The position numbers were made by a program, and so were the translations under genes. Below the pieces are notes generated by a model. The model had not been told where the DNA came from and did not search any database. It saw only the letters and a program-made list of their open reading frames with translations. This document shows positions 19,912-47,051 of a DNA stretch of 64,000 bases, piece after piece. Origin of the DNA: Henricia sp. BOLD:AAB3569 (taxonomy: Eukaryota > Echinodermata > Asteroidea > Spinulosida > Echinasteridae); assembly GCA_037783545.1 (NCBI GenBank), contig JBBELK010000060.1, positions 992,001-1,056,000 on the forward strand, read 5' to 3'. Numbering within the stretch: the stretch's first letter is position 1; each line of letters begins with the position of its first letter.

Positions 19912-19984
19912 TGCCCCGACTGGGATTCGAACCCAGGTCCTTGGCATACATGGCCAACTGCTCTACCAACTGAGCTATCTGGGC
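19912..19984 (-). tRNA. tRNA-like sequence, probably a tRNA pseudogene
   Basis: 73 nt on the minus strand: acceptor GCCCAGA/TCGGGGC (one mismatch), D-arm GCTCAGTTGGTAGAGC, perfect T-arm CTGGG-TTCGAAT-CCCAG. The anticodon stem only pairs if shifted by one base and the loop then lacks the invariant U33 (CATGTAT), so a functional tRNA is doubtful. It may also be the head of a SINE, but I see no second copy. Confidence 0.45.
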
Positions 19985-21851: not shown

Positions 21852-21927
21852 ATGGAGTGTCTGTTTAGTTTCTACATATTGGCTTTTTGTACTCTACTGC
21901 TCCAAGTTTCATCAGCACCCATCCAAG
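21852..21927 (+). CDS. Acidic Tg1 protein exon 1: start codon and signal peptide
   Basis: The ATG sits in a good context (TGCCATGG). It encodes MECLFSFYILAFCTLLLQ and then VSSAPIQ, a hydrophobic core followed by small residues, so cleavage after Ala-22 is likely. Donor GTATGA at 21928, phase 1. No clear TATA box was seen upstream. Confidence 0.75.
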
Positions 21928-24900
21928 GTATGAAATCATTTCATTGTTTGGACAATTTAAACAAATATACTGCATTTTCTGCCATTTTCTGCAATTCAAG
22001 AAGTTTTAAAGTTATGTACATGTGCACATCACTGATGAGTGGTTATGAACATCACTGACTAATAATTACTATTATTAGGCCTACTAAAGTGCAAATTACT
22101 ATTTTTTTTCAACAATTAAGTTGAAATAATTTTGTAAAACCAAGATTTTATGCAAAGTACATGTACATGAAATAAATTTTCTGTGAAACCCGTAAACATG
22201 TATGAGATCTAACTTGTTGGTTTCACTTTCATTTCAGAGTCAGAAGCACAACTATCTAAAAAGCACTACTTGAGCAGTGATAAGGTAAAGTACATGTGGG
22301 TCATTCTATAAATTTGGGGTCCAACGTGTGACATTTTTCTGTCCCCGTAACACCTGACATACTGCTATTTGCCATACAAGTATCATTAAAAATGCCTTCA
22401 AAACATGTTTTTATGAATTGTACTTTAAGTAATCACTCTTTGAAATAGAGAGCATTTAAAGAATATGTCCTGAATTTACAAACTACAACATTTTACAAGA
22501 TGTCAGATGTAACGGGGGACAGAAAAATTGGACCCCAAATTTATAGAATGACCCATGCATGTGTAATTTTATTTGCTGTGTCTTATGTCTATCCTACATA
22601 GGGTAACCCAAATGCGCTATGGAATCACAAAATCTCACATTGTTACTATGTTTGTCGGGTGCGTATCCAGCATAAAACGGAGCTGGCGTACGCCACCTGT
22701 TTGCACATTATGCCTCAGACTGCAGGAAATTGGCTTAAATACTTCAATGTCTAGATACGCCACTGTTGGTGGCTGTGACGTAGTTTTTTATCCGTTAAAA
22801 ATACAGTATGCCCTTGAAAAAGTATACCCTTTTTAAAATTAATATTTTGCAAAACTGTGAAATATTTCAGAAAACGACCTATGGGAGTGTTAGTCTTCCA
22901 TTATTTTGAACTATAAAAAGTAACATTTAATCATTGTTCTCATTTGTTTTCCAGGAGTCGCTTTTGAAAAAGGCAAGTATACCTCTTGTTAAAATACATA
23001 TTGTCATATAAATCTTGAAATTAAGCCTGCAAGTTAACTTTCAACCTCATAACCTGTACTCGTACTCAAAGGAAATGCTTGATAACTTGACCACCAGTAT
23101 TACTCAACAGTACCGGCCGTACTTCGGTAAAAGCACCAATACAACATTTGCATTTAATACCTAGGTAATTGTAACTACATGTACAACACTCAATTTTCTT
23201 TTTGTTTTGCCTCAGAACCCATGAAAGAAAATATCAGTTGATACCCAACATTTCTAAGAAATCAAAACCAGATATATGAGCAAAGAAATGTTTCTTGTCT
23301 AATTTTTACCAGTATAATTAAGAAGTGTATAATAATTTTCATGTGAACTGGCTTTGCTGTTGTAATATTTTACTTTGCTCACAGATTAAAAACAAACAAG
23401 TTAATTTTGACAAATTTGTGCCTTTAAACTGTTTGCCGTTATTTGAAGGAAATTATTTTTACTCACAAAATGATGTCAAAATAAAGCATTTTGTTTTTCA
23501 ATTACAGGTGCAAATTTTGGAGAATGAGGTAGGTTTCTTTTATTTGGAAATTGAAATGTTTAATTGCATGTGAAGAGTTGTCTGATGATGAAGTGATGAA
23601 TTTAGAAACAGAAAAGAACATTTCCCCCAATTTAAACTCTGTAGACGAATCTCAAATTAACCAATTTGAGACCGATCTGCGCACTTAACGTGAAATAACA
23701 CGAAGAGCCGCTTCATCAAATTCAGAAGTGAACTAATGTACGCATGTGAATGCTATACATGCCACGCAGAACAACACACGTACACACTCAGTCGATGTAC
23801 ATTACTGTACTTGTAGCGCATGCGTACTGCCAACTTAACACGAAGAGCCTTGGCTTCAATGCGGAAGTGCGCAGAACGGGCTAATGTGAAATTCGTCTAA
23901 ATTAGGGTAATTCCCAAAATTAGGGGTCCAAAACGTTTGGTGTCCTAGTTATACATGTACGAGTCCCTGTGCATCAAAAATCACCACTCGATCATGATCA
24001 TAGATTCTCAGTAATAGATTGTGGCCTGTGATTACAGGGAACAGCACCAATTTCTTGAATATTTTGTTGTGATTACTGACAAATATTTGAAACAAAAGAC
24101 CGTAAAGGCTCATAATTTGTTCCATTATATTGAATAGGAATTTGGTGTCCCGGGTTACCTACGCCAATGAAAATTAGCTGTAGAATGAGTTTGCATTAAC
24201 CTTGGTGCCTTATCCACACACAAACGTTAAATTTACTGAAGTGGCATTTATGGAAATAAAAATAAATATTTTCTACTGGAAAACCACTTTCAATCACTAA
24301 ATACACGAGAAAATCTTAAAAAGCATGTCACACTTTTGGACCCCTAATTTAGGGAATTAACCATTAAACATTTGTGGTATTTGTAGCAATTGATCAATTG
24401 ATTATGGCATACTGAATTACGGGCATTCTTCCATAGGAATATGGTGCTCATATTGTTACACAGTGGAAGTTTTGTGGAATGGGAACGATTGCACTTTAGA
24501 ACAGAATTGTTTTCACTGTTGTAGTCAAAATACAGTAATTGTTTCAAACTTACCAATGGTTAAAAACTTTCCACATTAAAATTCAACTTTCCAAACACTT
24601 CAAGGTTTTATAGAACAAATATTACATGTGCTGTGAGTGTAACATTGTTTTAAGTTGCATCCGTAACTCATTTTCTTGACAGTAAATGTTTTTAAATCAC
24701 TGCATCACACAAAGAGCTCAAACCCATCTTAAAGACATTCAAAAAGTCTTGAAGCATGTTGCTTTTTCATTCTTTCTTTTTGAAAATCGGCAAATGTGAT
24801 TCATATGACTACAGAGTCATGGCTTGATCTTTGTTTTTATTCTTATTTTTATTCAATGGTTTATTTCAATTACAATGACCAACAGCTGCTGCTGCTGACC

Positions 24901-27900
24901 GGGCCACCTTACATGGGGTAAACGATGAATATAAGAGAATATAGGCCTACATAAATAACTTGGGTACGTGTAGTAAAGAATAATATGTGCAAGACCTGTG
25001 AGTTTACAGATTTTGATGGTGGTAGTAACTGTCTATGGCGTTTTGAGTTTAACAATTTCATTCCAAAGTTAAGAAACAAATCATTATTTTCTTCGCTCTG
25101 TCAGAGACTGTAACTTGGTCAATTCAAGGCATTCACTGTAACTGTATTTCTTGCCAAGCATTATACGGAAAGCTCTCTTTTGTACAAATTTGATTTTCTT
25201 TGACTGACTTTGTGTAATGGCAGTATGCCAAACTGGTGAAGCGTACTCCAATGTTGACCTGATATATGTTATATATACAGTGACCATATCGTGGATTGAA
25301 GCACCACACTTTTACTGTCAAGAAAATGAGTTACAGAGGCAACTTAAAACAATGTTACACTCACAGCACATGTAATATTATTTTCTGATCAAACAGTGTT
25401 GCATTAATTTGTTCCTTTATTCCATCTTTTTGTCTTGTTAAACTTTAAGGCATGAACTTGCTTTTAATTCAACCTCTCATAAAAGTGGAAAGCTTTACAA
25501 TGTTTATTTTCATCATTTTTACCAGGTAATTGGTTTTTATTGATTTTGGTGGTGGAAAATGCCCATTTTCAGCAACAGGCTCGTTGCTGTACAAGCTTAT
25601 TTTTTGACGCCCATGGTTGTTTTCCCATGGGTGTTGAAATTTTGATACCGTATCATGAGTCATATTTTTCTCACTACCATTCTGAAATTCTGCGTTCTAA
25701 ATCCATATATTTCCAAGGATATCATCGAAATACCACCACGATATTTAGTAAACTAATTTATCTGGTTCCATAAAGCAGTGCAGTAATACACCAACCCTTT
25801 TGCTTCCACATCCAAATTGGAGATTGCAAATTTCTTGTTTTCTTCCCATGGAAAGTATTTTGGGAAGGTATTTTATTAGAATGCAATCCATCTGGAAAAT
25901 CTGAACAAGCTCTTTCGATATTTTTCATTGCAGCTTGAAGGCAGACAGTTAAATCAGGTACTTGAAGATGATGAACCAGAAGCTACTCAACCAAGAGAGA
26001 AGAAACCTGATGAAGCACCTTCCGACAAAGAGCAAGATCTTGTAGCGGTAAGAAAAAATAAATTAAATTGAGGGAGTATAAAGTGACTATAGTGCCCGTG
26101 CCTCATGGTTCAGCTAGAAGAGCATCTGTGTCTAGTGTCAAGAGGTCTTTAGTTTGAATCCCAGTGATGAGGACCATATTTTTCGTTTTATATCCCATGT
26201 TAGTTATTTCATTTCTGTGGTGATTAGGCACCACACCAAATGTTGCGTTTACTACTCGGTTACAAATATATTGGTCTTTATTTGCTCAATCCAACAGTCA
26301 TTACTGAGAAGAGTGTCAACCGAAAAAGCTGGCAAAGATGCAGATGGTAAGTTTGTGTTAACACTTTGGGCGTGTTTGTTTCATGACAGATCCGAATCCA
26401 GATCGCGATCTGTTTTACCGCGCAGAAACAAACGAAACCGCTCTCAACTCGGATCTCAAATCACGTGAATTGCAATTTATTTACGAAATTTGTCAAATTT
26501 CTGTTAGCATTCTAAATTTGTTTGTGTTGCCTCTGAAAACTGAAACGACACTGTTTTACTCACACAAAATCTCCGCGATGTTTACGTCGCCATTTTGGAT
26601 CTAGCGCTGAACCATCTCTCGAGAAGGATCCCACAGATCACAGATCTCGATCAGGATGTGCGCGAAGTGAATGAGTTCACCTTGGATCTGCGCGGATCTG
26701 AATCTGGATCCGTCCGAAACAAACACGCCCTTTGTAATATGTTGCTAACTTGAACTTAAGTCTGACTCGAGTCTCTAAGGGCCAATGAAAAGATTGGATA
26801 AAATGAATGTGGTATCCTGTAAGAAACCTGCATTGAGAATTCTGCGCCAAGATAGTTCTTTGAATAGACACTATAGGGAAGTGGTATACTAGTAATAATG
26901 CTCTAATATGAAAAAAGGTGCCATGTTCACAAATGTCAAACCAAAAATTTACTTAAGACTGAACTTTGAAAAGATGTCTTGCTACTCAATAACAACACCT
27001 GGGCTGCGTTCCACTTACACAAACATTGCCACTGGTTACAGTGCTTCTGTGCACTTGTCTATGGAAAGCTGTGACTCTCTGATTGTTGGCAAACGTTTGC
27101 AATGCTTACATGTTTGGAATGCAGCCCTGTACTTTGAGTTTCGACAAAGTTTTCCACACCAGTCAGAATTCATGAAAAATTCATTGAAATTTCGGTTGTC
27201 GTTTTTACTGTTGAATCACTATCAGGCCTGAAGTTTCCTGAAAGTATGTAGTTTTTACTGTAGCTACAGGAGAAAGCAAAAAAGCCACCAAAAAAAAAAA
27301 AAAATTCCCCTAGTTGTGCCATGGATTGACAAATGTACAGCATATATATGTAAAATCATGTAATATTCCTGGGAAATAATAACCACTGTTTGATGAGGCC
27401 ATGTGTTGATTTTTCTGGCGTTGAGAGGTGGAGTACGTTCCAAATATGCGAACGTTGCCAACGTTTGCAACTTTCGCTAGCATCTGGTACCCAGCTTTCC
27501 ATGGACAAGTGCACAAAAGCACCAAAACCAGTGGCGAATGTTGGCAACATTCGCGTATACATTGCTTAACTAAAAAAAAGTTCCTTAAGTCGTGCAGGCT
27601 CGGTCTAGTTTTCGCGACCATAAGAAGAAAACAGATCTGCACTTATAAAATACAAAAACACAATAGAAATTCCAGACGGAACACGGCCATTCCAGGCAGA
27701 CTGGAGATGCACCGCCAGGAATTTCAATTGTGTTTTTGTATTTTAATGAGCGTGGATCTGCTGCAGATTTCTTTTTATGGTCACGAAAACTTGACCTAGC
27801 CTGAGCTACTTATGGCCTTTTTTTGCAGAGGGGGTCACAAATGCACAAATACAACAAATCATCCAATGAAATTTGTTGAAAAAGTTGCATGTGGGTCATT

Positions 27901-30900
27901 CCATGAAAACAGGACACAGTATCCCCCTTAATACGTCGTGACACTTTTGGAGTTGATTTTGGCATATTATCCTTGGAAAGAATATATGACCTCATCATGA
28001 ATTGAACACCACCTTGCTTTGTTGATACATTGTACTACCAAAAACATAACGAGAACGATTCAATAAACTAGTGCTATCTTCTAAATGCAAGTGTGACATT
28101 TTGAAACTTTTGCTCGAAATGTAACAAATTTCGCTCATAAGACATGTCTAAATATTCTACATTATTTAGAAATTGCACAGAAATTTCTTTAAACAATTTT
28201 GTTAACTTGAAAAGGCAATTTTTACAAATGCATCAAAATGTTACACTTTGGCTCCTGTTTTTATGGAAATACCCATGTACACTTGTATTCTTTAGACCCG
28301 TATAAGAAGGCACTGGCCCAGCTGTTGGATGAGCAGATTGAGAGTGGGAAGTTTGAAGATGAACCGTTTGATGACGACATGCTTGGGCAGCAACCAGGTC
28401 CGATAAGCATCAATATTAACTCTTTTACTACAGATTTATTTTTAAAAGTTTGTGTTGGAATACTATATCAAATAGTCGCCATCTTGTGGGTCAGTTTCTC
28501 TAAGTGAGGGATGGTTGCACGCTTTGTGCTGATATATTGTTCACCGATTGAAATATCAAAAATTGCCCTTCAAGATGGCAGCTTTTCGATACGGCCTATT
28601 AATTGAAGATAAATTTTGTTGCTGGCAGCGGCTTTTCAGTTGGAGGTAGACATTTTTTCAGCTGCTGCAATCAAGCAGTGGATTGTTGTGAAATAATCAT
28701 TTTACAACTTAACGGCAGTATACATCATTGGTAATCTTGAAAATCAGAAATGTTCCAGATTTACGCCTAACTTGCACAATATAAACATGATGACCGTAGA
28801 AAGCTTCCCCTGAGATGGTTTTGTCTGAAGTGCTCTAGTCTTTGAGAAATGAGTAAAACAATTAGTTTTCGTCTCATGAGACGAAAATTCAATTCGCCCC
28901 AAAACCAATTCGACCAAGTGACATTTCGCCCCAAACCACTTCGCCCGAGTGCCATTTCGCCCCAAATTACTTCGTCCAGACACTACCTCGCCCAAATGCC
29001 ACTTCGCCCCAAAACCACTTCCTCGCCCAAATGCCACTTCGCCCCAAAACCACTTCATGCACAGGCCGTGGTTCAGGGCGAAATGGTTTAGGGCGAAGTG
29101 GTTTTGGGGCGAAATGACTGCAAATCCTTTTTTGACTGTTTTATCAAAAGTTAGACGAAGTACGGAGCTGGTTTTTGCTCAGGTTAGTTTTAATCATGCA
29201 TATCTTCAATCACACGGAGTTAAAACTATTTGTAACAGTTTACCAATCATGTATACGTTCTTTAATACTCTCTGGCTAAAATTGTAAAAGTTAAAATGGT
29301 CACTCAGAGCTGCAGGCTTGTCATAAAATCAAGTATTTAGGCACTGTTGAAGGTGAAGCAAAGTGTATATATAAAACAAAGCTTTTGCGGATACCGTGCG
29401 TTTCTGATACTGTGCGTTTCTGATACTGCATGTGCAGCACAGTGACCCAATCCGATGTGCGCCTGCGCTGGGTGCACCAAATGACACATGTACATGTACA
29501 TGTACATGTACATGTACATGTACATGTACATGTACATGTACATTTGTACACGTGCATCATGCATCGAGTGTACGTGTATACATTATGCATGTGTGCAACG
29601 CGCCGCGTGAGTACAGTATTCGGCGAGTTCGGTATTTTCATGACGAGTGCGGTATATTCTCATATCACCCGAAAAGACATCCAATATTATTATTGTTATA
29701 TAAAATGAAGCTGACACACTTGCAACATTTTTCAAACAGTATAATTTAAAATTCGAAATTGTTGAAAGTTCCACAAGCAACAGTAAACATTTCACCCTGG
29801 CACCATGGAGCTCCTTTTGTAGCTCCATGCTGGCACATATGGAAACTGTTTTTAAATACTTTCGTAATCCCACGTACAGACATGACAGACGTAGGCCTAA
29901 AACTTACGGAGAATCGCATTCAGTTCAATTTTGCTTAAGTCTTCAAAGTCCTCTGACAATTCCTTTTCCCTCAAGTACAGCTTCAAAATGGGTACAATTA
30001 TAGAATGCAGGGCCCACGAGGACAGTATCTGGAGATCCGGCTATGTGGATCTCCGGTCACAGAGTTCACAGGATAATTGACCACAGTGTTTACCATACAC
30101 AGCACAACCTACAGCTCCCGACCTACCGCTAGCTCCCCGCTGTGACTGTCCGCTGTGACTGTTTACACAGCACACACAACAAGCCGTTCGCACTATCCCG
30201 ACTACACAGCTCGTTCGCACTATCCCGACTACAGCTCCCCGCTGTGAAGTGTAAAGAATTAGCGACTACGACTGCTTATTGCAACACGTTTACGACTGCG
30301 ACTGTTTATTCGGCCGGCCTACCACGTGCAATACAAGTACACGCGAGACAATTATGTTGCATGCAGACCACGCTGTTAAATTTACACGCGAGACCATGCC
30401 CGCGTGCAAATATCGTGCAAATTTATCCGGGTCACGCGAGACCATACACAGATTTGGTATGATTTGATATTTACATGGCGGTCAAATTATGGCCGCCTCG
30501 TATACTATTCCAGCTTTCGGAGATTCTTTTTATAAAGGGAAATAAATCCCGAGTGTCTTTCGGTTGCCGATGTCCGCCTCGTTTACTGATCTGGCCCTCG
30601 GAGATTGTTTTAAAAAAGGAAAATGAAACCCGAGTAGCGATCGGCTGCCGATAACCGCCTCGTACACCTTTCGGGCATTCGGAGATTGTTTTAAAAAAGG
30701 AAAATAAAGCCCGAGAGCCCTGGCCTTCGGCAAACACGATCTTTCGGGCCCGAGCGCCGCGTTTGACTGGAGATCCGCAGATCCGGAGATCCACTCGAAA
30801 AAATAGACGGGTTTTGGTTGGGGGTGGGGACAGGGAAATAAAGCCCGATTAGCATACGGTTGCCGATTTTCGTCTCGTTTACTATTCCGGCTTTCCGAGA

Positions 30901-36900: not shown

Positions 36901-39900
36901 GTGGGACTGTAGGAAACAATGCTGACGATGACGAGGATGATGATTTTCTGAAAGACATCACCGTGGCAGATCTGAAGGCCTTGCTAGATGAGCTTAGAGG
37001 GAAGCAACAAGGTAGATACAACCAGTTCATCCAAATAATGTGAAGTGAGATAACCTCATCTTACATGCACTCTTACAAAATAGGAATCCAATTGTCTTAA
37101 AATGTAAATTCTCGATCAGAACATGAGTTTGTTGAACACAGTGAACTTGTGGATAACATTAAAACAAAGCAGTGATCGGTCAATCAAGTAGACCTGTTTG
37201 AACAAAGTGATTCCCACAGTGATGGACATTTTCTCTTTCTGGGAGAATCTTATGTATAAAGAGCTGACAGAACGATTTGCTGGAAACCAGTTTTTCGGAA
37301 CGAACGTGCAACAGCGACTCTCGTTTTGCCAATTGTGCATACATGACTGGCATATTTTGGATACAATTTCCGGCAAAGCCGAAATAAAATAGTGAAAAAT
37401 GCATCAAGTGGATAATACACTGCAGCAGAGAGGGTTTTTTTCTTGGTTTTTTTCCGTTGAGAATGTAGGCACCTACAATGCGGTATCCAGAATATGCTGG
37501 TCATGTATATGTATGCACGACCAGCAAAACGAGACTCGCTGTGCGCATTTGCATGTGCGTTCTAGGACCCATGCTCCGGAACACTGTCATGACTGTAACA
37601 GCAGTGTAATACAGCAGTGTTTATTTCCTGGCATTTTGTCAGTAAAACTCACCAATTTCTGACGATGTCCTGTTAAATGAATAAACAATCAACGGCGGTA
37701 TTAATTTTACCAGATTGTGGCAAGATTTACCGGCTGCATGTCATCTTATTTCAAGTCAAGTTTGCTGTATAGTGTATACGTTCCTCTTCGTTCGGATCCA
37801 TCGGCAACTTCAAACCAGTCACATTTCCCAAAATCGTAACTCCACTGCTTGAATTTATCATTGCAGTTTGGAAACGTTCCAGCTTTCAGAGTCGAACAAC
37901 ACGTTTTAACTCACTATTTTGACGAAATTTCATGGCGAGTACATGTTTCAGCATGTTCAGTTTACCATGCAATTTCGAGTGGTCCAGCTTAAAAATACAT
38001 AGAGTAATGTGCGAGGTATTCTAGGTACCGTACAGACTTTTGCGCCGGCTAACATGTATTGGTCTGCACCACCTGCAGCAGCTCGACTTGCCAGTTAATC
38101 TGGTGCTTGACTCACTCATACGCAAGCGCCATAGCACGAAGGCGAGACTCTAGGATTTATACAAATGTAACAATGCAACTGGTCTATTGGGGTTATAATT
38201 TTCAAATTATCACTAAAAAGTTGCAGTAGTTTCATTCGCTTTGGCCGTCATCGAAAATTGTTTGCAGTCATCGGTGAGTTTATCCAAGATCGGTGCATGT
38301 CATCGAGTGTATGGCACACTTTAAATTCTCCTAAAAATGGGGTGGGGGAGGGGGGGGGGGGGGGGGGGAACAGGCAACACATCTTTCCAAAATACATATG
38401 GGTCTTTCCACAGTAAAGGGGGAATTTTGGCAACTAAGACCTTATTTTCCAGAAAATACCTTTGTCATCTGGTCTCAGTTTCAGTTGTTCTGAAGAGATA
38501 ACTTAAGCCCAAAAAGTTTACAAATAGTGTGACAACATGCCTTGTTAAAACCCTGTGTGCAAATTTCCAATATACGCTCGTAACTGGGACTGCCTAAAAT
38601 GTGTCCGTCCTGGTTACGAGCGCATATTGGAAATTTGTACACCGGGTTTTTAGAAAGGCATGTTGTCACACTATTTGTAACCCTTTTTGAGCCTAAGTTA
38701 TCTCTTGATGCAGAACAATTGAAACTTGATTCTTTTATTTTGAGACCAGACAAAGGTATTTTCTGGAAAATATGGTCTGTGTTGCCAAAATGCCCCCAAA
38801 GAAACTCCCAAATACTTGTATCAACAAATCACCCATGTTGTGCCCTTGCCTTGTAGGTGGCGGATCACTAACACCAGGGGATCTAGGCAAAGCTGTGAGC
38901 TACTTGCTAGATCATCTGAGTGTCGATGATCTGCAGACACTGCTGGCTGCTGTCAGGGAAAGGAAACGAGGTATATGCTTCTGCTCAGTGTGACCCGGTC
39001 TTCAAAAATGAGTCGGATGTTGTTATTTTGTGTGTCAATTCTGTTTAATTTTGTTCAACATGAAAGTGAACCAACCCCCATTTTGCACCTCAATTTCAAG
39101 ACAATGAAACTCAGTAATGTGTGACCCTAGAAAAGTAACCAAGGTATCGTTGGAACGCACATACCCTCTGCTTTAAGATGCTGCCATGATTTTTACTGGT
39201 AAATTTATAGTCTGGTCAAAACAACCAAAGTTGGATTACACCCAGAGTCTTGCTATGAAATAGGAACACTCTTGGCAAGGATTTTACTCATACGTTTTGT
39301 GGGTTGCCTTTTATTCATGCGTTTTGTGGGTTGCTTGTTACTCATGCGTTTTGTGGGTTGCTTTTTACTCATGCGTTTTGTGGGTTGCTTTTTACTCATG
39401 CGTTTTGTGGGTTGCTTTTTACTCATGCGTTTTGTGGGTTGCTTTTTACTCATGAATGCGTTTTGTGGGTGTTATGGCCAAGTAGTCTAGTGCGTTGAAC
39501 TCAAGTTCCTGTGCCAGTACTAGAATGTGGGTTCGATTCCGGGCCGTGACAGGTTGTGGCACTTGTGCTCTTGAGCAAGGCACTTAATCACACTTGTTCC
39601 GTCCTTCGGAAGGGATGTAAAGCCGTTGGTCCAGTGTGTTAGGTTTCGGTAACGCACTTTAAAGATCCCAGAGCATTCTTTCGTAAAGAGCAAGGGGAGG
39701 GATTCCCCAGTGTCTCTGGCCGTTTCTAATTCAACTTAGAAGTTGATAGTTATTCGAATATCTATGTTAATTGATCCCATTCCTGTAATTGACGGTCCTT
39801 CTGCTGTTGGATGTGGTGAATAAATAAATAAATAAATAAATAAATTTTCTTCCACGTAGAACTTGACGAAGATAAAATGTCTGATAAGGAGCTGGCTGAA

Positions 39901-42900
39901 GCAATTGAGAGTTTACTTAAACACATCAGTGTAGATGAGCTGCAGAGGATTTTATCTGCCGTAAAGACAAGAAAAAAAGGTACATGCTTGTTATTAAAAA
40001 TAAATTACGAGATTGGAAAAACTATTAAAAACGGCGTTATCTCCATGTGTGATTGAAGATGTGTAGGATAAAAAAGAAACCCCCAAAAAAGACTTGTGTA
40101 TATACCATTCTCAGGACTCCTTCCCTGTACACGTCCACCATAGCTGAGACGCAGCTTTCTCCAGTGCATGGACTGTGTGTTTTGTGTTGTTGTTAACCAA
40201 ACAGCGCGCTTCCATGACTCGCGCAATGCCCTCTTCACACACACAAATTTACACTGAGCCTCTTTGTGCGTGATTGCCACGCGCGTCGCTTTGAGAAAAA
40301 GCATTGTGGAAGGAATTTTGAGCGAAACGATGCACTGAAAATCACTGAATTATGAAAACACTTTCCGTCCAAGCTGTGGAAGGAATTTGGGGTGAAACAA
40401 CGCACCGAAAACCACAGAATTAGCTTGGACATGTTGAACGGAAAGTCTTTTCGTAATTCAGTGATTTTCAGTGCATCGTTTCACTCAAAATTCCCTGCAC
40501 ATCACTTATTGTTAAAGCGACGCACGTTGCAATTACGTGTGCGCGAAAAGGCTCAGTGTGAATTCACCATTACAACAAACGTGCAAATTGTTCGAAGTGA
40601 CGACACAATGAACATCATCACATAACGCATGCACTGCCGTGTCCCAGCTATGGCGGACATACAGGGAAGGTTTCCATAGTTACGGGAATGGTCTATAAGT
40701 TAAAACATGAACACTGTGTTTTTTTGTACATCATGTCACAGCATTCTGATTTTGTGTTCAAACTTTATATATATATTTGATTTTAGAACTAGACACAGAA
40801 GCTGATGATGGACTGAATAACAGAGGTGAGCATTTTTATCCAACCATCTGATTAATCATATTAATTTTTCTGTCAATCAGACAATGACATTTCTGTCCAC
40901 TGTTTTTTATTTTGTTTTCCTTTTCAAATTCCTAAAAAGAAACGCTGTGCTGTCGCCTAGTGAAATGAGAACGTTCCAACGTAGGTGGCGCTATCGTGTC
41001 CATCTCCCCTTGGGCATTTCTGTGTCTGACAGACTAATATGGCTGCTTAGTAATTAGGTGATCGGGCCAACAGCCCGATCACCTATTACTCTCGTACGAT
41101 TTCTTTGTCTTTTTTTTTTTTTTTTTTTTTTTTTCTTTTTCTTTTTCCACTCAAACGTTTCCAGAGCTTTTCTTCAAAACGGTTCAAGCTATCAACTTGA
41201 AACTTTGTAGGAACATCAACCCCAATGTGAAGGTGTGCATACAAGTGTGACGTCATTGTGACGTCATTGGGTATCAAATTACAACCCAAAAATGACTAAA
41301 ATATGCATGTTTTAAAATGCTTCCGTCTGGAAAACCACGTGACCCATGATTTTCGTATTTAGCCGGTTTATAGATAAGATCATGGCCTACGATTTTCTTC
41401 GTGTGGGCATTTTCATCTGACCCTTCCTTCTGGGGTCAATCTGAGGTCAAAGTTCAACGAAAACGAAAATCGCAATTTTTGCACTTATTGAGCAACAATG
41501 CCCATCAAACCAAGCTGAATCTTTTTAAGTAACTAAGTACAGGCATAGGTCCTATGGCAGACTTTCACCAGCGTGTATAATATTATGATGGCATCAAGCG
41601 TGACGTCATCGTGACGTCATCAAGTATCAAATTACACCCCCCAAAAAAACAAAATATGCATATTTTAAAATGCTTCCGTCTTGAAAACCACGTGACCCAG
41701 GATCTTCGTATTTGGCAGGTTTACAGATGACATTCTGTGCTACAATTTTCTTTGTGTGGGCATTTTCATCTGACCCTTCCTTCTGGGGTCAATTGGAGGT
41801 CAAAGTTCAACGAAACTGAGAATCTCAGTTTTTACACTTACCAGCAACAATGCCTATCAAACCAAGCTGAATCGTTAGTAAATTAGATACAGACATAGGC
41901 CCTACGGCAGACTTTCACCAGAATGTATAGTATCACGATGGCATCAAGTGTGACGTAATCATGACGTCATCAGGTGTCAAATTACAAAAATTCAAAGGTT
42001 ATTATTTCCAAAATTCATATCTCAAGAACCGTAATAGATACTTGAACAATTCTTTCACAACATGATAAGTCTAAATGAACTGAACAAATCATACGATGTC
42101 ATGACCCCTGTGTGACGCCTACTTCCGGTCCAAACCGGAAGTTGTTCGAAAATGTGCATTTTGTAAGCGTTTTGAATGCAAATAGATTCAAAGTGGTAGT
42201 GAATTTGACCATATTTCTACGGAACGAAATGTTTCCACACATGTAGACTTTTTGACTATACCATTTGTGACGTCATCACATGGACGGTGGTTACGTAATG
42301 TGGCGTCAAAATACGCAAATTTGGAGCTGAATTGTTTTAAAATGCTGTATCTTGAGAACTACAGCAGATATTTGCATGATTCTTTCGCCACATCTAAGAA
42401 CTTGATGTTTATCAAATTGTTGAACAATTTGTGCACAACATTGTGACGTCATGATATCGTCACAGGTGTCAAATTACAAAAATTCAAAGGTTATTATTTT
42501 CAAAATTCATATCTCAAGAACCGTAATAGATACTTGAACAATTCTTTCACAACATGATAAGTCTAAATGAACTGAACAAATCATACGATGTCATGACCCC
42601 TGTGTGACGCCTACTTCCGGTCCAAACCGGAAGTTGTTCGAAAATGTGCAATTTTTTAGCATTTTGAATGCAAATAGATTCAAAGTGGTAGTGAATTTGA
42701 CCATATTTCTACGGAACGAAATGTTTCCACACATGTGGACCTTTTGACTATACCATTGGTGACGTCATTACATGGACGGTGGTTACGTAATGTGGTGTCA
42801 AATCACGCAAATTTGGAGCTGAGATGTTTTAAAATGCTGTATCTTGAGAACTACAGCAGATATTTGCATGATTCTTTCGCCACATTTAAGAACTTGATGT

Positions 42901-45900
42901 TTATCAAATTGTTGAACAATTTGTGCACAAAATTGTGACGTCATGATGTCGTCACAGGTGTCACATTACAAGATTTCAAAGGTTATTATTTCAACAATTC
43001 ATATCTCAAAACGGTGCAAGCTATCAACCCCCAGCTATGGCGGATATGCAGGGAGGAGATATTAGTTACCGGATTAGTGTATACAGCAGCCGATTTCACG
43101 AAACTTTACGCAATTGCGCAAGTCCACTTACGCCATAAGTTATTGCGCAAGTAATGGCGTAAGTGGACTTGCGCAATTGCGTAAAGTTTCGTGAAATCGG
43201 CTGCTGAACTTCCATTTTTGCCATTCCACAGGTGATAACAACGTCTGAAATTCATCACAAAATGTTCATTTAACCCGATCACCTGGCGTTTGTAACAACA
43301 AACGTCATACCTCTAGTTTTATTTTTGTATTTATGAAAGTTGATAAATTATACCTTGCCTGTTAACATTTTAGCCTGCCAATGGTTTCCATCAGACTGGC
43401 CGAAATAACAAACACGGGGTGTTTTATTGGATTTTGTTTCCTTTAATTATAATGTGTCTTGATTTACTTGAAGGTCTTGAAGATCATGTAACTGAGGCTG
43501 ACGTGATGGATGACCTGATGGACTTTCTGGCTGGACTCAGCATTGAGGATCTACAGACAACCATCTTGGCTGTACACAGGAAGAAGCAAGGTACATTCAT
43601 GTTTCAATTAAATGCATCACCTACATCAATACTGTACTTTCTTAACAAATCATTTTTAGTACATATGATGTGATCACTACGGTTCGTGGTTACTTGCTGA
43701 ACACGATTTGGCACGGAATCAATCAGATTTCAATCAATCAAATACGTTGCAGCTGATGCGCGTCACAAACATTTATGCTCAAGATTCTGATGCACGAGTC
43801 AGTTTGTAGGCAGTGATGTCATTTGAGAGAGGTTAATTAATGCTTTGGGCATTTTCAAGGTTAGTAACATTATTACGTCAGATACTGTGAAAATGCTTTT
43901 GTAATGACCCGGTAAGCTACATGTAACGTATCATCATGTAGCGTATGAAATGACATATACTGCATCCTATGACATGCAACATGTAGCTCTCTAGGTCATT
44001 ATAAGAGCATTTTCACAGTAACTGTAACGGTAACTTTCACGGCGTTACATGTTATGTCAGTTTCTGTGAAAATGCCAATTTGTCTTCATTCTTTTCCATT
44101 TCAGCAATGAAAGAAGCCGTGGGCAAAGTAGCAAATGAATATTTGAATGATAAAGCATCTAAAGATGAAGATGGTGGTCATGAACGTGAAAATGATGATG
44201 CAACTACTGGACTGGGACCGTGTGCGCAAGAGAAACAGGATATCTTTGAGCAAATAACCACTGCTAGACTGGCCAACAAGTACCATGTGGGCGGTGATGT
44301 TCCCAACTGCAATGACGATGGCTACTATGCTCCCATTCAGTGCTCGGGATCGATGTAAGTCTATACGCTGGTGCACACACAGTTCTAATTTATTTCCTTC
44401 CTACAAGACACTGTATTGCTTTTGCTCTTCAGTTAAAGTTGCACTGTCCGTGTTTGGGTGAAAGGATTAAAAAAATTAATTCACACAAGCTATCGAATTT
44501 AGAAAGCTTACGTGTCTCTGTAACGAACAATATAAAACAATTAAATTTCCGACGTCGGAAATTGGAGATACAAGCCTTTTTCTTGAAACGGGCTTCACAT
44601 GTTGTACATGTGCGCGTAGCTCATATGTACATAGTATGTGTACAATGTATACAGTCTTCCCCACCCCCCCCCCCCCCCATACTCTATGCAGACTTTTTCT
44701 TTTCGTGCCGAAAATATTTTTTTCCTCAAAATCAAAACGCAGGTTTTCGCTCTAACTTTACAATTAGCCTAAGGGCATCATTACACACCTTACCCTTTTT
44801 TTTTAACCCCCTTGTCCCTTTTTTAATGCTTATAGGCAACTCGTCTGCGGACATGTGCAAGTCAACACAGTTAAGGTGCTACCTGGTTTATGCAGACCTC
44901 TGTTGTCCAAACGTTCGCATAGTGTATGTAATGCTCGTACACATGTACATTTGCGTCATGACCCTGTCGATTAAAAGACGGGGCCTGTCTTTTATTATTT
45001 CTTGTTTTTAATTGACTGGCATTAATCTTTGACGTGATTTTACGTTCTTGGTACCAAATGAAAGCTGGTAACTTTTTCTAATTTAGAAAAATAGCAATTT
45101 AGCTTTTACAAAATTGTTGATGCTCAAATCGGCCTAAAACTGGACAGTGCAACTTTTAAATCAATGTGATTGACTACTTGGGATTGATGTACATTCTGTA
45201 GACTGGCAAATGTTATACTTTAATGAGGTGGTATTTATGTGATAAAAGCTACCTAATTCCCTTATTTCCATGAGATAACTTCTAGGGATAGTATAATGGC
45301 GTTCAAGACTTTGAAAAAAAAATGGAAAGGATTAGAAAAACCAAAAAAGGTAATTCGAGGTATAGTAGACCATTTTTGAGGAAATACCTTTGTCTGGTCT
45401 CAAAATAAAATAAATAAGTTTAAGTTGTTCTGAAGAGATACCTTAGGCTCAAAAAGGGTTACAAATAGTGTGACAACATGCCTTTCTAAAAACCCTGCGT
45501 ACAAATTTCCAATATACGCTCGTAATCGGGACAGACACTTGTGTCACATTTTAGGCCTGAGAAGCAGTGTGCTCGGGTGGTATTTCAACCCATGAACTCC
45601 TGCAGACTAGGCAGGTGTTGTAATAACCACTCATCCATCAAGCTGGCCAACTTGAATAGTTTGTTTGGATCATTTAGCAGCGGGAACCGCAATTAAAAGG
45701 AAGGTGATTTCACTTCAGAAACCATTTCTACATAATGTCTTGACATTGTAGGTGTTACTGTGTGGACATCAATGGAGCAACTACAGGGGAAGAAACAACA
45801 ATCTGGCAAGCAGGATCGCTGAAATGCTCCCAAGAAGACGGTAAAGATCACTCCACTCTTTCTTACCATGATAAAATAAACTGCACTGCGTTTGACATGT

Positions 45901-47051
45901 CCAGCAGTATGTGCTGAAGGAAACAATTTAGACTTTTTGTACATTATTGGGTCATATGGCATAGAGAAAAGCACAAGGCTGTAGTCGAGTCCCCACTTTC
46001 CGTGTCCGAGTCCAGCAAACATCCGAGTCCTCGGCAGGCCGAGTCCTTATTTCAATTTCAAGTGCAAGTGTCATTGATCGTGCCTGTGATCTTTTAGCAG
46101 CTCGTAAGTTTGCTTTTAGGCCGAGAAAAATGTTTCTTTGGGAGGTGAAATACATTTCGAGTGCTTAACATTATTTTAAGCGGTAGAAAAAAATTATTTT
46201 ACATTCTCAGAATTTTATTTCACATGTTCGAAATACTTTCGGTCCCAAAATAAATTACAATAGACACTTCAAATAATTTCCGGCGCCTGTATAATGTAGT
46301 TTTTGTAAAATAGTGTATATTTATTTTTTTCACTGGACTCTGATGGACTCGGCCCAAATCTCCGAGTCCTTACCGCCCGAGTCCGAGTCCGAATCAATGT
46401 CCTTAAAAATCAGGACTCAAGTCCGGACTCGAGTCCTACAGCGTTAAGCACTACATGTACCAGCAAAATTTGAGTCGGTGTTCGTAAAAGATTTCTGAAT
46501 TTTGGTAGACGCTGAACCCATAAAATATCAAATTGAATTGGTATTTACCAATTTCTAGTCAATTGATTAGTCAATGATCAGAACCATTACCATGGCAAAT
46601 GGCGTCACACTCATTTTTGTTGCACAATAGACCTTTATCACGGTGCATCCATCTTTGTCTTGTTCACCCATACGTGTCGGGCACGATCAGTCCGTCTGCG
46701 CGTCCGCACGATAGCGCGTGTATCTCCTGTTGGAATTCTCTGTCCACATTGCGCACTCTTTTGATCGCGCAACGCCTGTGCCATTGTGATGCACACAATG
46801 AACAATTTCAAAACTGACCAAACTACTTTTTTGTAATTCATTTACCGGTATTTTATTTTATTTTTGCAGCCAATCCAGGAGTTACTAAGTTGCCACCCGA
46901 TTCACCAACAGATGATACACAAGATGAGAATGATGATGCAGAAAACGAAGATGAAAATCCTGACCTTGAACAACTTGAGCGCAGTCTCCTGGAGATGCTT
47001 AAAGAAGAAAAGCGCCATCAGGAAGCCAAAGTTAGGGGTCTTAATATGTAA
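21852..47051 (+). CDS. Secreted acidic multi-module protein with thyroglobulin type-1 domain (16 exons, complete, unrecognised)
   Basis: Join 21852-21927, 22238-22284, 22955-22972, 23508-23528, 25934-26047, 26298-26346, 28296-28397, 36285-36386, 36859-37011, 38857-38970, 39860-39979, 40787-40825, 43474-43590, 44105-44354, 45752-45840, 46870-47051. The sum is 1593 nt, that is 530 residues plus TAA, with phases consistent throughout. Order: signal peptide (1 to about 22), acidic linker with micro-exons (26-108), Asp/Glu-rich segment (109-142), five related modules (143-176, 177-227, 228-265, 266-305, 319-357), acidic spacer, thyroglobulin type-1 domain with six Cys (about 390-467), acidic tail with a Lys/Arg-rich end. 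Residues 109-357 come from phase 1-1 exons, so modules could be duplicated without breaking frame. Thyroglobulin type-1 domains often inhibit cysteine proteases or bind ligands, but the repeats match no family I know. Inferred role: secreted matrix, granule or prohormone-like protein. Confidence 0.72.
22238..22284 (+). CDS. Acidic Tg1 protein exon 2
   Basis: Acceptor CATTTCAG ends at 22237, donor GTAAAG at 22285. Encodes ESEAQLSKKHYLSSDK with one dibasic KK. A palindromic MITE starts 12 bases after the exon. Confidence 0.65.
22297..22555. mobile_element. Palindromic MITE with GGGTCATTC ends
   Basis: Left tgggtcattctataaatttg and right 'aaatttatagaatgaccca' are exact inverses; further in, 'ggggtccaa' pairs with 'ttggacccc'. 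About 260 bp, no ORF. Confidence 0.75.
22955..22972 (+). CDS. Acidic Tg1 protein exon 3: 18-nt micro-exon with GC donor
   Basis: Acceptor TTTTCCAG ends at 22954. Six codons, ESLLKK. The donor is AAG|GCAAGT, a GC-AG intron with otherwise perfect consensus. Phase 0 on both sides, so skipping would preserve the frame. Confidence 0.55.
23508..23528 (+). CDS. Acidic Tg1 protein exon 4: 21-nt micro-exon
   Basis: Acceptor AATTACAG ends at 23507, donor GTAGGT at 23529. Seven codons, VQILENE, phase 0-0. Its extent is supported by strong splice sites and by the coil-like sequence that continues into exon 5 (LEGRQLNQVLEDD). Confidence 0.55.
23688..23850 (+). repeat. Dispersed repeat, family R6, copy a
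   Basis: 'aacacgaagagcc', 'gtacacactcagtc' and 'cttgtag(c/t)gca(t/c)gcgtactgcc' recur at 58495-58665 in the same order. Confidence 0.55.
23905..24362. mobile_element. TIR MITE with GGTAATTCCC ends
   Basis: Left 'ggtaattcccaaaattaggg' and the inverse of right 'ctaatttagggaattaacc' match over about 30 bp, including 'ggggtccaaaa'. The unit is about 460 bp in an intron of the acidic Tg1 gene. Confidence 0.65.
24618..25380. mobile_element. Inverted arms flanking a LINE fragment
   Basis: Arms of about 65 bp: 'attacatgtgctgtgagtgt' at the left and its inverse 'acactcacagcacatgtaat' at the right, both continuing into 'gttttaagttgc' and 'actcattttcttgacagta'. The middle holds the LINE relic at 25020-25320. 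Confidence 0.6.
25020..25320 (-). mobile_element. LINE reverse-transcriptase C-terminal fragment
   Basis: Minus-strand peptide YITYIRSTLEYASPVWH, then KIKFVQKRAFRIMLGKKY and CLELTKLQSLTERR. This is the thumb-proximal part of Jockey/CR1-like reverse transcriptases (SxLEYxxPVW...QKRAxRxIxG). It is truncated on both sides. Confidence 0.8.
25600..25920. repeat. Dispersed repeat, family R4, copy b
   Basis: Parallels 7360-7700: 'ttttcccatgggtgttgaaa', 'tttccaaggatatcatcga', 'gcttccacatccaaattgga'. It ends about 15 bases before exon 5 of the acidic Tg1 gene. Confidence 0.6.
25934..26047 (+). CDS. Acidic Tg1 protein exon 5
   Basis: Acceptor CATTGCAG ends at 25933, donor GTAAGA at 26048. 38 codons, phase 0-0: LEGRQLNQVLEDDEPEATQ, then EKKPDEAPSDKEQDLVA. 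Highly charged and probably disordered. Confidence 0.7.
26098..26240 (+). mobile_element. tRNA-derived SINE, family S2, copy b
   Basis: 'gttcagctagaagagcatct', B-box 'gtttgaatccca', tail 'ggtgattaggcacca', colinear with 17288-17425. Confidence 0.6.
26298..26346 (+). CDS. Acidic Tg1 protein exon 6
   Basis: Acceptor ATCCAACAG ends at 26297, donor GTAAGT at 26347. Reads SLLRRVSTEKAGKDAD; SLLRR is a dibasic site. From here on, introns are in phase 1 until the thyroglobulin domain. Confidence 0.65.
26368..26730. mobile_element. TIR MITE with GGGCGTGTTTGTTTC ends
   Basis: Left gggcgtgtttgtttc is the exact inverse of right gaaacaaacacgccc; the arms continue with 'agatccgaatccagatc' against 'gatctgaatctggatcc'. 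It begins 20 bases after exon 6 of the acidic Tg1 gene. Confidence 0.75.
27001..27126. mobile_element. Short palindromic MITE
   Basis: 'ggctgcgttccacttacaca' pairs with 'catgtttggaatgcagcc'. Related sequence ('acgttgccaacgtttgcaac', 'ccatggacaagtgcac') lies at 27425-27562. Confidence 0.55.
27580..27810. mobile_element. Palindromic MITE, family R5
   Basis: 'caggctcggtctagttttcg' pairs with 'cgaaaacttgacctagcctg'; 'atacaaaaacacaatagaaa' pairs with 'caattgtgtttttgtatttt'. Copies: 55060-55280 and a diverged one at 9333-9480. Confidence 0.7.
27892..28275. mobile_element. TIR MITE with GGGTCATTCCA ends
   Basis: Left 'tgggtcattccatgaaaaca' and the inverse of right 'tttttatggaaataccca' match except for a few bases. 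It ends 20 bases before exon 7 of the acidic Tg1 gene. Confidence 0.6.
28296..28397 (+). CDS. Acidic Tg1 protein exon 7
   Basis: Acceptor GTATTCTTTAG ends at 28295. It encodes DPYKKALAQLLDEQIESG and KFEDEPFDDDMLGQQP. The donor GTCCGA at 28398 is weak. Phase 1-1, same length (102 nt) as exon 8, possibly a diverged module. Confidence 0.65.
28712..29265 (+). repeat. Dispersed repeat, family R3, long copy
   Basis: Includes 'tttacgcctaacttgcacaa', 'cgtctcatgagacg', four or five tandem 'ccacttcgccccaaa' units, then the reverse 'ggcgaaatggtttagggcga' and the tail 'gaagtacggagctggttttt'. It parallels 55585-56055. Confidence 0.7.
29484..29541. repeat. (TACATG)n microsatellite, about nine units
   Basis: Perfect hexamer repeat that is its own near-complement (tacatgtacatg), hence open frames on both strands (VHVHVH, CTCTCT, MYMYMY) with no coding value. 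Confidence 0.95.
29612..29715. mobile_element. Half copy of the 35455-35637 MITE
   Basis: 'gcggtatattctcatatcac' and 'ttgttatataaaatgaagc' match one arm of 35455-35637. Confidence 0.5.
30480..31925. repeat. Satellite array of about 80-bp units with higher-order order
   Basis: A core 'cggagattgttttaaaaaag' recurs roughly every 80 bp (30519, 30598, 30680, 30980, 31147, 31290, 31371 and others), joined by 'gttgccgatgtccgcctcgt'. Longer blocks repeat: 30480-30860 resembles 31190-31545, and the segment with 'actggagatccgcagatccg' recurs near 30769, 31452 and 31758. The long minus-strand frames are repeat artefacts. Confidence 0.85.
32086..32245. repeat. C-rich pyrimidine tract (ccctccctaccccctt)n
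   Basis: A strongly strand-asymmetric polypyrimidine run with a roughly 27-bp period in its right half (ccctccctacccccttcccc). Proline-rich open frames there are artefacts. Confidence 0.85.
32706..35200 (-). mobile_element. 5'-truncated, frameshifted non-LTR retrotransposon
   Basis: Minus-strand frame 35200-33872 encodes the C-terminal part of an APE-type endonuclease (RNQIDYILVKNRNMKQ, SDHRPVIMDINL), a charged linker and the first reverse-transcriptase motifs (LTPLQKPGKPRGPLTNLRPI). Frame 33824-32706 continues with LMDMSKAFDTV, GVPQGDCLSPILFTLYLA, the YADD box (PKYADDIGWAAS) and a tail with RRLLRKAINVRWPKK and RRLKWFGHAMRL. A single frameshift near 33905-33915 separates them. The endonuclease N-terminus is missing. 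The clade is uncertain. It sits in the 7.9-kb intron of the acidic Tg1 gene. Confidence 0.9.
35455..35637. mobile_element. Palindromic MITE
   Basis: 'gggtgatatgagaatatacc' pairs with 'ggtatattctcgtatcaccc'; outer 'ttcattttatataa' pairs with 'ttatataatt'. One arm recurs at 29612-29715. Confidence 0.65.
35725..36236. mobile_element. TIR element
   Basis: 'tgtcatctgattggttaaaa' is the inverse of 'ttttaaccaaccagatgaca', and the outer 'tatataccNNatgNgtaga' also pairs with 'tctacacattcggtatata'. About 510 bp, ending 48 bases before exon 8 of the acidic Tg1 gene. Confidence 0.7.
36285..36386 (+). CDS. Acidic Tg1 protein exon 8: repeat module 1
   Basis: Acceptor TGTTGTGCAG ends at 36284, donor GTAGGT at 36387. 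Module core MLDSMSIDDLKKLLSDF followed by DEEKR-G. Phase 1-1. The intron before it is 7.9 kb and carries the satellite and LINE. Confidence 0.72.
36859..37011 (+). CDS. Acidic Tg1 protein exon 9: repeat module 2 with acidic insert
   Basis: Acceptor CCCCTGTGTAG ends at 36858, donor GTAGAT at 37012. A long Asp/Gly/Asn-rich leader (TDGDDGG, NNADDDEDDD) precedes the module core DITVADLKALLDELRGKQQ-G. Phase 1-1. Confidence 0.72.
37080..38245. other. Intron stretch, no exon found
   Basis: Contains an inverted pair 'gagtctcgttttgc'-type at 37315-37330 and 37520-37540 (agcgactctcgttttgcca / gcaaaacgagactcgctgt), so part of it is another degenerate foldback. Nothing else is recognisable. Confidence 0.4.
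38399..38805. mobile_element. Foldback element, family F1, copy a
   Basis: The arms mirror each other around 38600: 'caaatttccaatatacgctc' pairs with 'gagcgcatattggaaatttg', 'gtgtgacaacatgcctt' pairs with 'aaggcatgttgtcacac'. Copies: 45360-45560 (one arm) and 50157-50590. Confidence 0.8.
38857..38970 (+). CDS. Acidic Tg1 protein exon 10: repeat module 3
   Basis: Acceptor GCCTTGTAG ends at 38856, donor GTATAT at 38971. Module core LLDHLSVDDLQTLLAAV followed by RERKR-G. Phase 1-1. It begins about 50 bases after a 400-bp foldback element. Confidence 0.75.
39284..39473. repeat. 27-bp minisatellite, six to seven units
   Basis: Unit 'atgcgttttgtgggttgctt' plus 'tttactc'. Since 27 is a multiple of 3, open frames persist on both strands (RFVGCFLLM and KKQPTKRMS) but there is no splice or start context. 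Confidence 0.9.
39469..39845 (+). mobile_element. tRNA-Leu-derived SINE, family S1, full copy
   Basis: Head gttatggccaagtagtctag with a CTCAAGT anticodon loop (CAA, Leu) and B-box 'gggttcgattcc'. The body has 'ttgagcaaggcacttaatca', 'ccttcggaagggatgtaaag' and 'agatcccagagca'; the tail is five TAAA repeats. It inserted just before exon 11 of the acidic Tg1 gene. Confidence 0.82.
39860..39979 (+). CDS. Acidic Tg1 protein exon 11: repeat module 4
   Basis: Acceptor TTCCACGTAG ends at 39859, donor GTACAT at 39980. Module core LLKHISVDELQRILSAV followed by KTRKK-G. Phase 1-1. A SINE tail of TAAA repeats ends only about 15 bases before this acceptor. Confidence 0.75.
40099..40698. mobile_element. 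TIR element with internal palindromes
   Basis: 'ccttccctgtacacgtccac' / 'catagctgagac' at the left pairs with 'gtcccagctatggcggacat' / 'acagggaagg' at the right; the outer 'tataccatt' pairs with 'aatggtctata'. A second inverted pair 'aaaatcactgaattatgaaa' / 'ttcgtaattcagtgattttc' lies in the middle. Confidence 0.65.
40787..40825 (+). CDS. Acidic Tg1 protein exon 12: 39-nt linker
   Basis: Acceptor TTGATTTTAG ends at 40786, donor GTGAGC at 40826. ELDTEADDGLNNR-G; its start resembles the ELDEDK opening of exon 11, so it may be a truncated module. Phase 1-1. Confidence 0.6.
41055..43290. repeat. Complex repeat block with GATCACCT ends and tandem duplication
   Basis: Left end 'aggtgatcgggccaacagcc', right end 'taacccgatcacct'. 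Inside are two approximately 365-bp units (near 41280 and 41645: 'cttccgtctNgaaaaccacg', 'tgacccttccttctggggtc') and two 492-bp units (41971-42462, 42463-42954) of high similarity. TGACGTCA occurs about nine times. The poly-T run at 41110-41134 is an A-tail on the other strand. Confidence 0.8.
43084..43206. mobile_element. Near-perfect 123-bp palindrome
   Basis: cagcagccgatttcacgaaa reads back exactly as tttcgtgaaatcggctgctg, with 'cgcaattgcgcaagtccact' against 'agtggacttgcgcaattgcg'. A diverged relative starts at 55295 (gcagttgatttcacgaatcc). Likely a small MITE. Confidence 0.82.
43474..43590 (+). CDS. Acidic Tg1 protein exon 13: repeat module 5
   Basis: Acceptor TTACTTGAAG ends at 43473, donor GTACAT at 43591. 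Module core FLAGLSIEDLQTTILAV followed by HRKKQ-G. Phase 1-1. Confidence 0.73.
44105..44354 (+). CDS. Acidic Tg1 protein exon 14: acidic spacer and first part of thyroglobulin type-1 domain
   Basis: Acceptor TTCCATTTCAG ends at 44104, donor GTAAGT at 44355. After AMKEAVGKVANEYLND and an acidic spacer comes the domain: PCAQEK, an IFEQITTARL helix, VPNCNDDGYYAPIQC. The spacing of Cys and the aromatic-x-P-x-Q-C motif are typical of thyroglobulin type-1. Ends in phase 2. Confidence 0.8.
44433..45159. mobile_element. TTAA-flanked TIR element (family T5)
   Basis: TTAA at 44433-44436 and 45156-45159; ends agttgcactgtcc and the inverse of ggacagtgcaact. It contains a C15 run at 44665-44680. The 223-residue frame at 44340-45011 is a by-product of exon 14 reading into it. 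Confidence 0.65.
45360..45560. mobile_element. Foldback family F1, single arm
   Basis: 'aaatacctttgtctggtctc', 'gtgtgacaacatgcctttct', 'caatatacgctcgtaatcgg', matching the left arm of 50157-50590. The second arm is absent. Confidence 0.65.
45752..45840 (+). CDS. Acidic Tg1 protein exon 15: second part of thyroglobulin type-1 domain
   Basis: Acceptor GACATTGTAG ends at 45751, donor GTAAAG at 45841. It supplies CYCVDINGATTGEE and LKCSQED, giving the C-x-C-V signature (Tyr in place of the usual Trp) and the sixth Cys. The phase 2 to phase 1 junction matches exon 14. Confidence 0.8.
45975..46450. mobile_element. Foldback of GAGTCC-rich arms
   Basis: 'ggctgtagtcgagtcc' and 'tccgagtcctcggcNggccg' near 45975-46045 pair with 'ggactcggcc' and 'ggactcgagtcctacagc' near 46330-46445. 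Confidence 0.55.
46870..47051 (+). CDS. Acidic Tg1 protein terminal exon
   Basis: Acceptor TTTTTGCAG ends at 46869. It encodes an Asp/Glu-rich tail (DDTQDENDDAENEDENPD), then a helix LEQLERSLLEMLKEEKRHQE and AKVRGLNM before TAA at 47049-47051. The final helix with its basic end loosely resembles the repeat modules. Confidence 0.75.

Follow-up and report, generated by a model that had tools for sequence, protein, structure and literature searches.

A gene model from the sea star Henricia for an acidic, probably secreted protein that combines a new-looking helical repeat with a thyroglobulin type-1 domain

Introduction

Testicans (SPOCK) and SMOC are secreted proteins that carry a thyroglobulin type-1 (Tg-1) domain, with acidic tails being present in the testicans. 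The proteins 7B2 and proSAAS restrain convertases. The chromogranins and secretogranin II (SgII) are treated as vertebrate proteins, and no granin is known to carry a Tg-1 domain.

Thyropins are described as proteins with Tg-1 domains that occupy the cathepsin cleft by means of three loops, with subtype 1A of the domain having six cysteines in three disulphides and with several functions having been acquired by Tg-1 domains (PMC10889554). Reports of 7B2 (secretogranin V) extend to sea urchin (PMC6209648) and starfish (PMC9971248), as well as to nemerteans, brachiopods and phoronids (PMC8557429). A search of the open-licence literature found no paper linking granin and thyroglobulin type-1 in invertebrates, none joining a thyroglobulin type domain with a neuropeptide precursor and none on the evolution of amphioxus granins in the secretory granule.

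The locus described here lies in a 64,000-nt stretch of Henricia DNA that was analysed as a whole (the window). The gene model that it yields is well supported and describes an acidic, apparently secreted protein in which a new-looking repeat occurs together with a Tg-1 domain; from this model we infer a function. Judged by profile libraries, solved structures and the open-licence literature, this make-up looks to be without a match to a named family.

Gene structure and splicing

Sixteen exons at positions 21852-47051 (+) of the window join into a single open frame of 530 residues, as follows (splice scores and profile E-values are explained below).

21852..21927, + strand: exon 1, start codon; its hydrophobic leader MECLFSFYILAFCTLLLQVSSA is taken for a signal peptide (open frame, splice join; leader by eye)
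22238..22284, + strand: exon 2 (splice join; acceptor 6.9, donor 3.9)
22955..22972, + strand: exon 3, 18-nt micro-exon with GC donor (rank 2 of 14 micro-exon candidates)
23508..23528, + strand: exon 4, 21-nt micro-exon (rank 1 of 14 micro-exon candidates)
25934..26047, + strand: exon 5, acidic (splice join)
26298..26346, + strand: exon 6 (splice join; acceptor weak, -0.2)
28296..28397, + strand: exon 7, acidic, phase 1-1 (splice join; donor weak, -0.2)
36285..36386, + strand: exon 8, helical unit 1, end EEKR (join; profile E 0.00036)
36859..37011, + strand: exon 9, acidic stretch and helical unit 2, end GKQQ (join; profile E 1.0, marginal)
38857..38970, + strand: exon 10, helical unit 3, end RERKR (join; profile E 1.2e-9)
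39860..39979, + strand: exon 11, helical unit 4, end KTRKK (join; profile E 2.1e-6; two-helix model)
40787..40825, + strand: exon 12, short acidic spacer, phase 1-1 (splice join)
43474..43590, + strand: exon 13, helical unit 5, end HRKKQ (join; profile E 0.0028)
44105..44354, + strand: exon 14, acidic linker and first part of Tg-1 (Cys 397, 426, 437) (join; Pfam; cysteines)
45752..45840, + strand: exon 15, second part of Tg-1 (CYCV; Cys 442, 444, 466) (join; Pfam; cysteines)
46870..47051, + strand: exon 16, acidic tail at the C-terminus, where a final stretch looks helical by eye; stop codon (splice join)

Around each proposed exon, the AG acceptors and the GT or GC donors lying no more than a few bases away were tried in turn, and only stop-free joins were kept. 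Eight such joins were left, of 527-530 residues and with one-residue differences at three places, and the 530-residue join was adopted. This enumeration bears out the claim of the initial annotation that sixteen exons join in one frame into 530 residues. In the adopted join, 14 of the 15 introns are GT-AG, with a GC-AG intron after exon 3 (AAG/GCAAGT). Intervals of similar size between an AG and a GT, taken from the rest of the window, were open in the required frame at frequencies from 0.03 (for exon 14) to 0.77 (for exon 3). Multiplied across all 14 internal exons, these frequencies come to approximately 10^-8.7, which is not a strict probability because the exons had been chosen by a reader; with all of them open, the exon set is far from chance.

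Ranked by a crude splice-site score with approximate weights, micro-exons 3 and 4 came second and first among the 14 candidates that lie between exons 2 and 5. The lowest values of this score were those of the exon 7 donor and the exon 6 and exon 15 acceptors (-0.2 each). Phase 1-1, which had been claimed for the five unit exons, was recovered for these in the join and likewise for exons 7 and 12, so that all exons from 7 to 13 share it. Exons of phase 1-1 can duplicate without a break of frame.

Several introns of the gene hold repeats or mobile elements. Intron 7 contains a retroelement (32706-35326, -), in which an RVT_1 frame (66.7 bits) overlaps with another long frame that has no Pfam match. 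Direct repeats of 300 nt (97%, spacing 492) and 246 nt (86%, spacing 353) lie in intron 12 (41242-43009, +), while introns 9 and 14 hold the copies of an inverted repeat (38418-38797 and 45372-45538) with 106-nt arms that are 93% complementary and 6726 nt apart.

Upstream of the gene, HEAT repeats of ULK4-like kinases were detected at 8451-8768 (+; HEAT_ULK4, 80.2 bits against 27), and three further regions (9006-9509, 9653-9895 and 12647-12865, +) have by eye the look of helical-repeat exons, with no Pfam match at E<=0.1. Apart from a tRNA match at 19912-19984 (-; 55.3 bits against 29), nothing in the window reached an Rfam gathering score. Downstream, a DDE_3 endonuclease-like frame at 52131-52478 (-; 29.1 bits against 28.6) is perhaps the remnant of a DNA transposon, and two frames with C-type lectin parts at 56857-59045 (-; 41.1 and 22.5 bits, cut-off 22.6) are possibly exons of one gene.

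Composition of the precursor

The predicted protein begins with a hydrophobic leader, as judged by eye. With this leader ending at residue 22 (also by eye), 508 residues remain, with a pI of 4.3, a mass of 56.4 kDa and 126 Asp/Glu against 60 Lys/Arg. The six cysteines after the leader all lie within residues 397-466. No N-glycosylation site and no amidation site (G[KR][KR]) was found in the chain.

Searching Pfam with the whole protein returned 13 families at E<=10, of which Thyroglobulin_1 alone was above its cut-off. Separate queries with the N-terminal segment, the units and the C-terminal tail returned 4, 24 and 2 families respectively, with none above cut-off; it should be noted that the HMMER filters remove most matches above E ~0.1. 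A weak N-terminal zinc-finger match (zf-C2H2_13, 17.2 bits against a cut-off of 27) was set aside. The sole match of EF-hand type (Wolframin WEF-hand), at 12.2 bits, was far below its cut-off of 27. The one NCBIfam match at E<=1 was to a bacterial family (14.5 bits against 90) and was also discounted. Taken together, the join, composition, unit profile, helix model and Pfam result support the initial description of an acidic chain with a leader, single-exon helical units and a Tg-1 domain.

Helical units

The five units are encoded by exons 8, 9, 10, 11 and 13. All five had been described as variants of one motif. In a relaxed form, this motif has four matches in a six-frame reading of the window, and these fall in exons 8, 9, 10 and 11; exon 13 (LSIEDLQTTIL) does not conform to it. 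A profile was built on four units at a time and the fifth sought among 2786 six-frame peptides of the window. The left-out unit was recovered for exon 8 (E 0.00036), exon 10 (1.2e-9), exon 11 (2.1e-6) and exon 13 (0.0028). Exon 9 was returned at E 1.0, just after a chance peptide at 0.99, and by this comparison its membership is marginal. No sixth copy was detected by the unit profile among the six-frame peptides of the window.

The units are 25-41% identical to that of exon 11. Pooled pN/pS among them was 0.57 over 27 core codon columns, with the ten pairs lying between 0.38 and 0.86. A shuffled-pairing control gave 0.96 (sd 0.06), and none of 500 shuffles was as low as 0.57; the ratio points to shared protein-level descent or constraint and is not a clean rate, because shuffling also breaks the alignment.

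Structure prediction of one module had been proposed as a check. With the other four units supplied as the alignment, the model of the exon-11 unit has two helices, at residues 8-21 and 24-38, with a mean pLDDT of 85.8 and a pTM of 0.43. On the strength of this model, the units appear to be of a diverged helix-turn-helix type.

Placement of the units inside a named family would have told against their novelty. None was placed, with no Pfam model above cut-off in the profile libraries and with unit queries against the sequences of solved structures giving two weak matches (E 0.16 and 0.85). Foldseek with the exon-11 model returned no solved match at E<=10, this being a weak test for a 39-residue hairpin. 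A search of viral contigs for related loci gave 75 pattern matches, with none confirmed. For the second helix of the exon-8 unit, the SAP domain (18.7 bits against 23.9, 16 of 37 SAP positions) and the C-terminal domain of MANF (ARMET_C, 14.5 bits against 23.5) were rejected. The likeness in both cases is to a part of the fold profile, with the whole profile falling below cut-off, and is likely due to chance or convergence.

A basic cluster had been claimed at the end of the units and does recur: the ends are EEKR, RERKR, KTRKK and HRKKQ in exons 8, 10, 11 and 13, so that a dibasic cluster lies at the exon end or one residue earlier in four of the five, while exon 9 ends in the non-dibasic GKQQ. 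Some dibasic pairs are internal to a unit, for example DLKKLL in exon 8. The Gly that was said to close each unit exon proved mistaken, because the last exon base had been read together with the intron. That base is the first of a split codon completed by the next exon, and the spliced residues are V, G, E, E and A following exons 8, 9, 10, 11 and 13 respectively.

Thyroglobulin type-1 domain

The Tg-1 domain (PF00086) scored 39.6 bits against the Pfam cut-off of 20.6, with residues 397-453 aligned to profile positions 1-56 of 67. Its six cysteines (Cys 397, 426, 437, 442, 444 and 466) agree in number with subtype 1A. The region matched 14 distinct solved sequences at E<=0.01, and the solved Tg-1 matches comprise thyroglobulin, saxiphilin, the p41 invariant-chain fragment (26.9 bits), a tick thyropin (8r6t), the HLA gamma chain and IGFBP-2. 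A longer query also met chains without a Tg-1 domain, namely DspB (E 0.00075) and protein G (E 0.34), and these matches are taken as a composition effect of the acidic flanks.

Tg-1 domain proteins, among them thyropins such as the p41 fragment, saxiphilin and Ir-thyropin, resemble the Henricia protein in the six cysteines and the CxCV core of a Tg-1 domain, and probably also in having a leader. What sets the Henricia protein apart is a long stretch, acidic and free of cysteines, towards the end of which its single Tg-1 domain is placed; the stretch contains repeats, for which no Pfam model was above cut-off. With the testicans and SMOC it has in common that it is a predicted secreted Tg-1 protein, and with the testicans also the acidic tail. 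It differs from both in that no Kazal-type or SPARC-type calcium-binding model was found in Pfam at E<=10 with the whole protein. The domain is perhaps a cathepsin inhibitor, although Tg-1 domains have taken on several functions (PMC10889554).

Comparison with granins

The Henricia protein has traits of the granin type, with its pI of 4.3 and 14 dibasic positions in 11 places, and it is like chromogranin A/B and secretogranin II in its putative leader, strong acidity, many dibasic sites and helical stretches. Granin, 7B2, SgIII and proSAAS models were absent from the Pfam matches at E<=10, both for the whole protein and for its three parts. The granin signatures 1 (near the C-terminus) and 2 (a cysteine loop), in approximate patterns, gave no match each. 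Further differences from the granins are the presence of a Tg-1 domain and of repeats on separate phase 1-1 exons.

Five short granin segments, with their letters likewise approximate, were compared with the protein against 2000 shuffles on a background of biased composition. The score of the SgII C-terminal segment was reached by 10 of the 2000 shuffles; it aligns with residues 87-118 (exons 5-7), which is outside the Henricia protein's own C-terminus. A second SgII segment was reached by 79 of 2000. The other three were no better than chance (1000, 1077 and 1486 of 2000). The likeness to the two SgII segments is weak, because it comes from five tests with approximate letters and biased composition, and is treated as a lead only. 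Neither Pfam nor the signature patterns place the protein among the granins, so that at most it works like a granin and it is not classed as one.

Discussion

The putative leader, the extreme acidity, the confinement of the cysteines to the Tg-1 domain, the helices and the dibasic sites at unit ends together favour a precursor of the regulated secretory pathway. We tentatively prefer the reading of a granin-like precursor that includes a Tg-1 domain of its own, at somewhat under even confidence. Consistent with it are the unit-end dibasic sites, the lack of an N-glycosylation site, the two-helix unit, the protein-level constraint and a Tg-1 domain above cut-off. Speaking against it are the absence of a granin model or signature and of an amidation site, the non-dibasic end of exon 9 and the internal dibasic pairs.

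From these features we infer the following course, along with the expressing cell type. A signal peptide would lead the precursor into the secretory route, where the acidic chain could bind calcium and condense in granules, with the helix-turn-helix units aiding sorting or packing. Prohormone convertases may then cut after the dibasic clusters at unit ends and so release helical peptides; the one from exon 11, for example, would span 37 residues (266-302). The Tg-1 domain, presumably knit by disulphides, would remain as a stable piece and may restrain cysteine cathepsins of the granule, a role modelled on that of 7B2 and proSAAS towards convertases.

It is possible, if somewhat less probable, that the locus encodes an uncut secreted or matrix protein of thyropin type, whose Tg-1 domain inhibits cysteine cathepsins or binds extracellular partners and whose acidic units form a calcium-binding spacer, for which the acidic tails of testicans are the likeness invoked. 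The complete six-cysteine Tg-1 domain and its sequence similarity to p41, saxiphilin and tick thyropin 8r6t would suit such a protein. The spacer, however, finds no Kazal or SPARC-type model in its favour, with the WEF-hand match being far under cut-off, and the basic clusters at unit ends (dibasic in four of five) would be superfluous for a mere spacer.

Taken further, the granin-like reading would make this gene product an animal prohormone with two components: a body of granin type, composed of helical peptide units multiplied by exon duplication, and an inhibitor of cysteine cathepsins in the form of the Tg-1 domain. Such a prohormone might stand to secretogranin II as a sister or forerunner from outside the vertebrates. 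We regard this extended reading as doubtful.

Alternatively, the protein could be a peptide-hormone precursor of the multi-copy kind, with each unit acting as a hormone and the Tg-1 domain as a carrier, as neurophysin is the carrier of vasopressin. Repeated units on separate exons of the same phase, four of five with a dibasic end, are what such a precursor might show, but the strong divergence of the units (25-41% identity to exon 11), the absence of an amidation motif (Gly followed by a dibasic pair) and the lack of a dibasic end site in exon 9 make this quite unlikely. Least probable of all is that the model fuses a leader gene (exons 1-7) with a unit and Tg-1 gene (exons 8-16) across the 7.9-kb retroelement-bearing intron, as the weak exon 7 donor (-0.2) and the reverse-transcriptase frame on the opposite strand of intron 7 might suggest, since phase 1 agrees at the join of exons 7 and 8 and a scan of intron 7 for extra phase 1-1 exons gave one candidate, which is an extension of exon 8.

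If the locus encodes simply a new Tg-1 protein, the gene model would still be a useful annotation. If the reading as a prohormone with a Tg-1 domain is true, a single gene would give the granule matrix, the peptides and a brake on the processing protease. A granin-like precursor with a Tg-1 domain outside vertebrates would then offer a handle on the origin of granule proteins and of their protease control.
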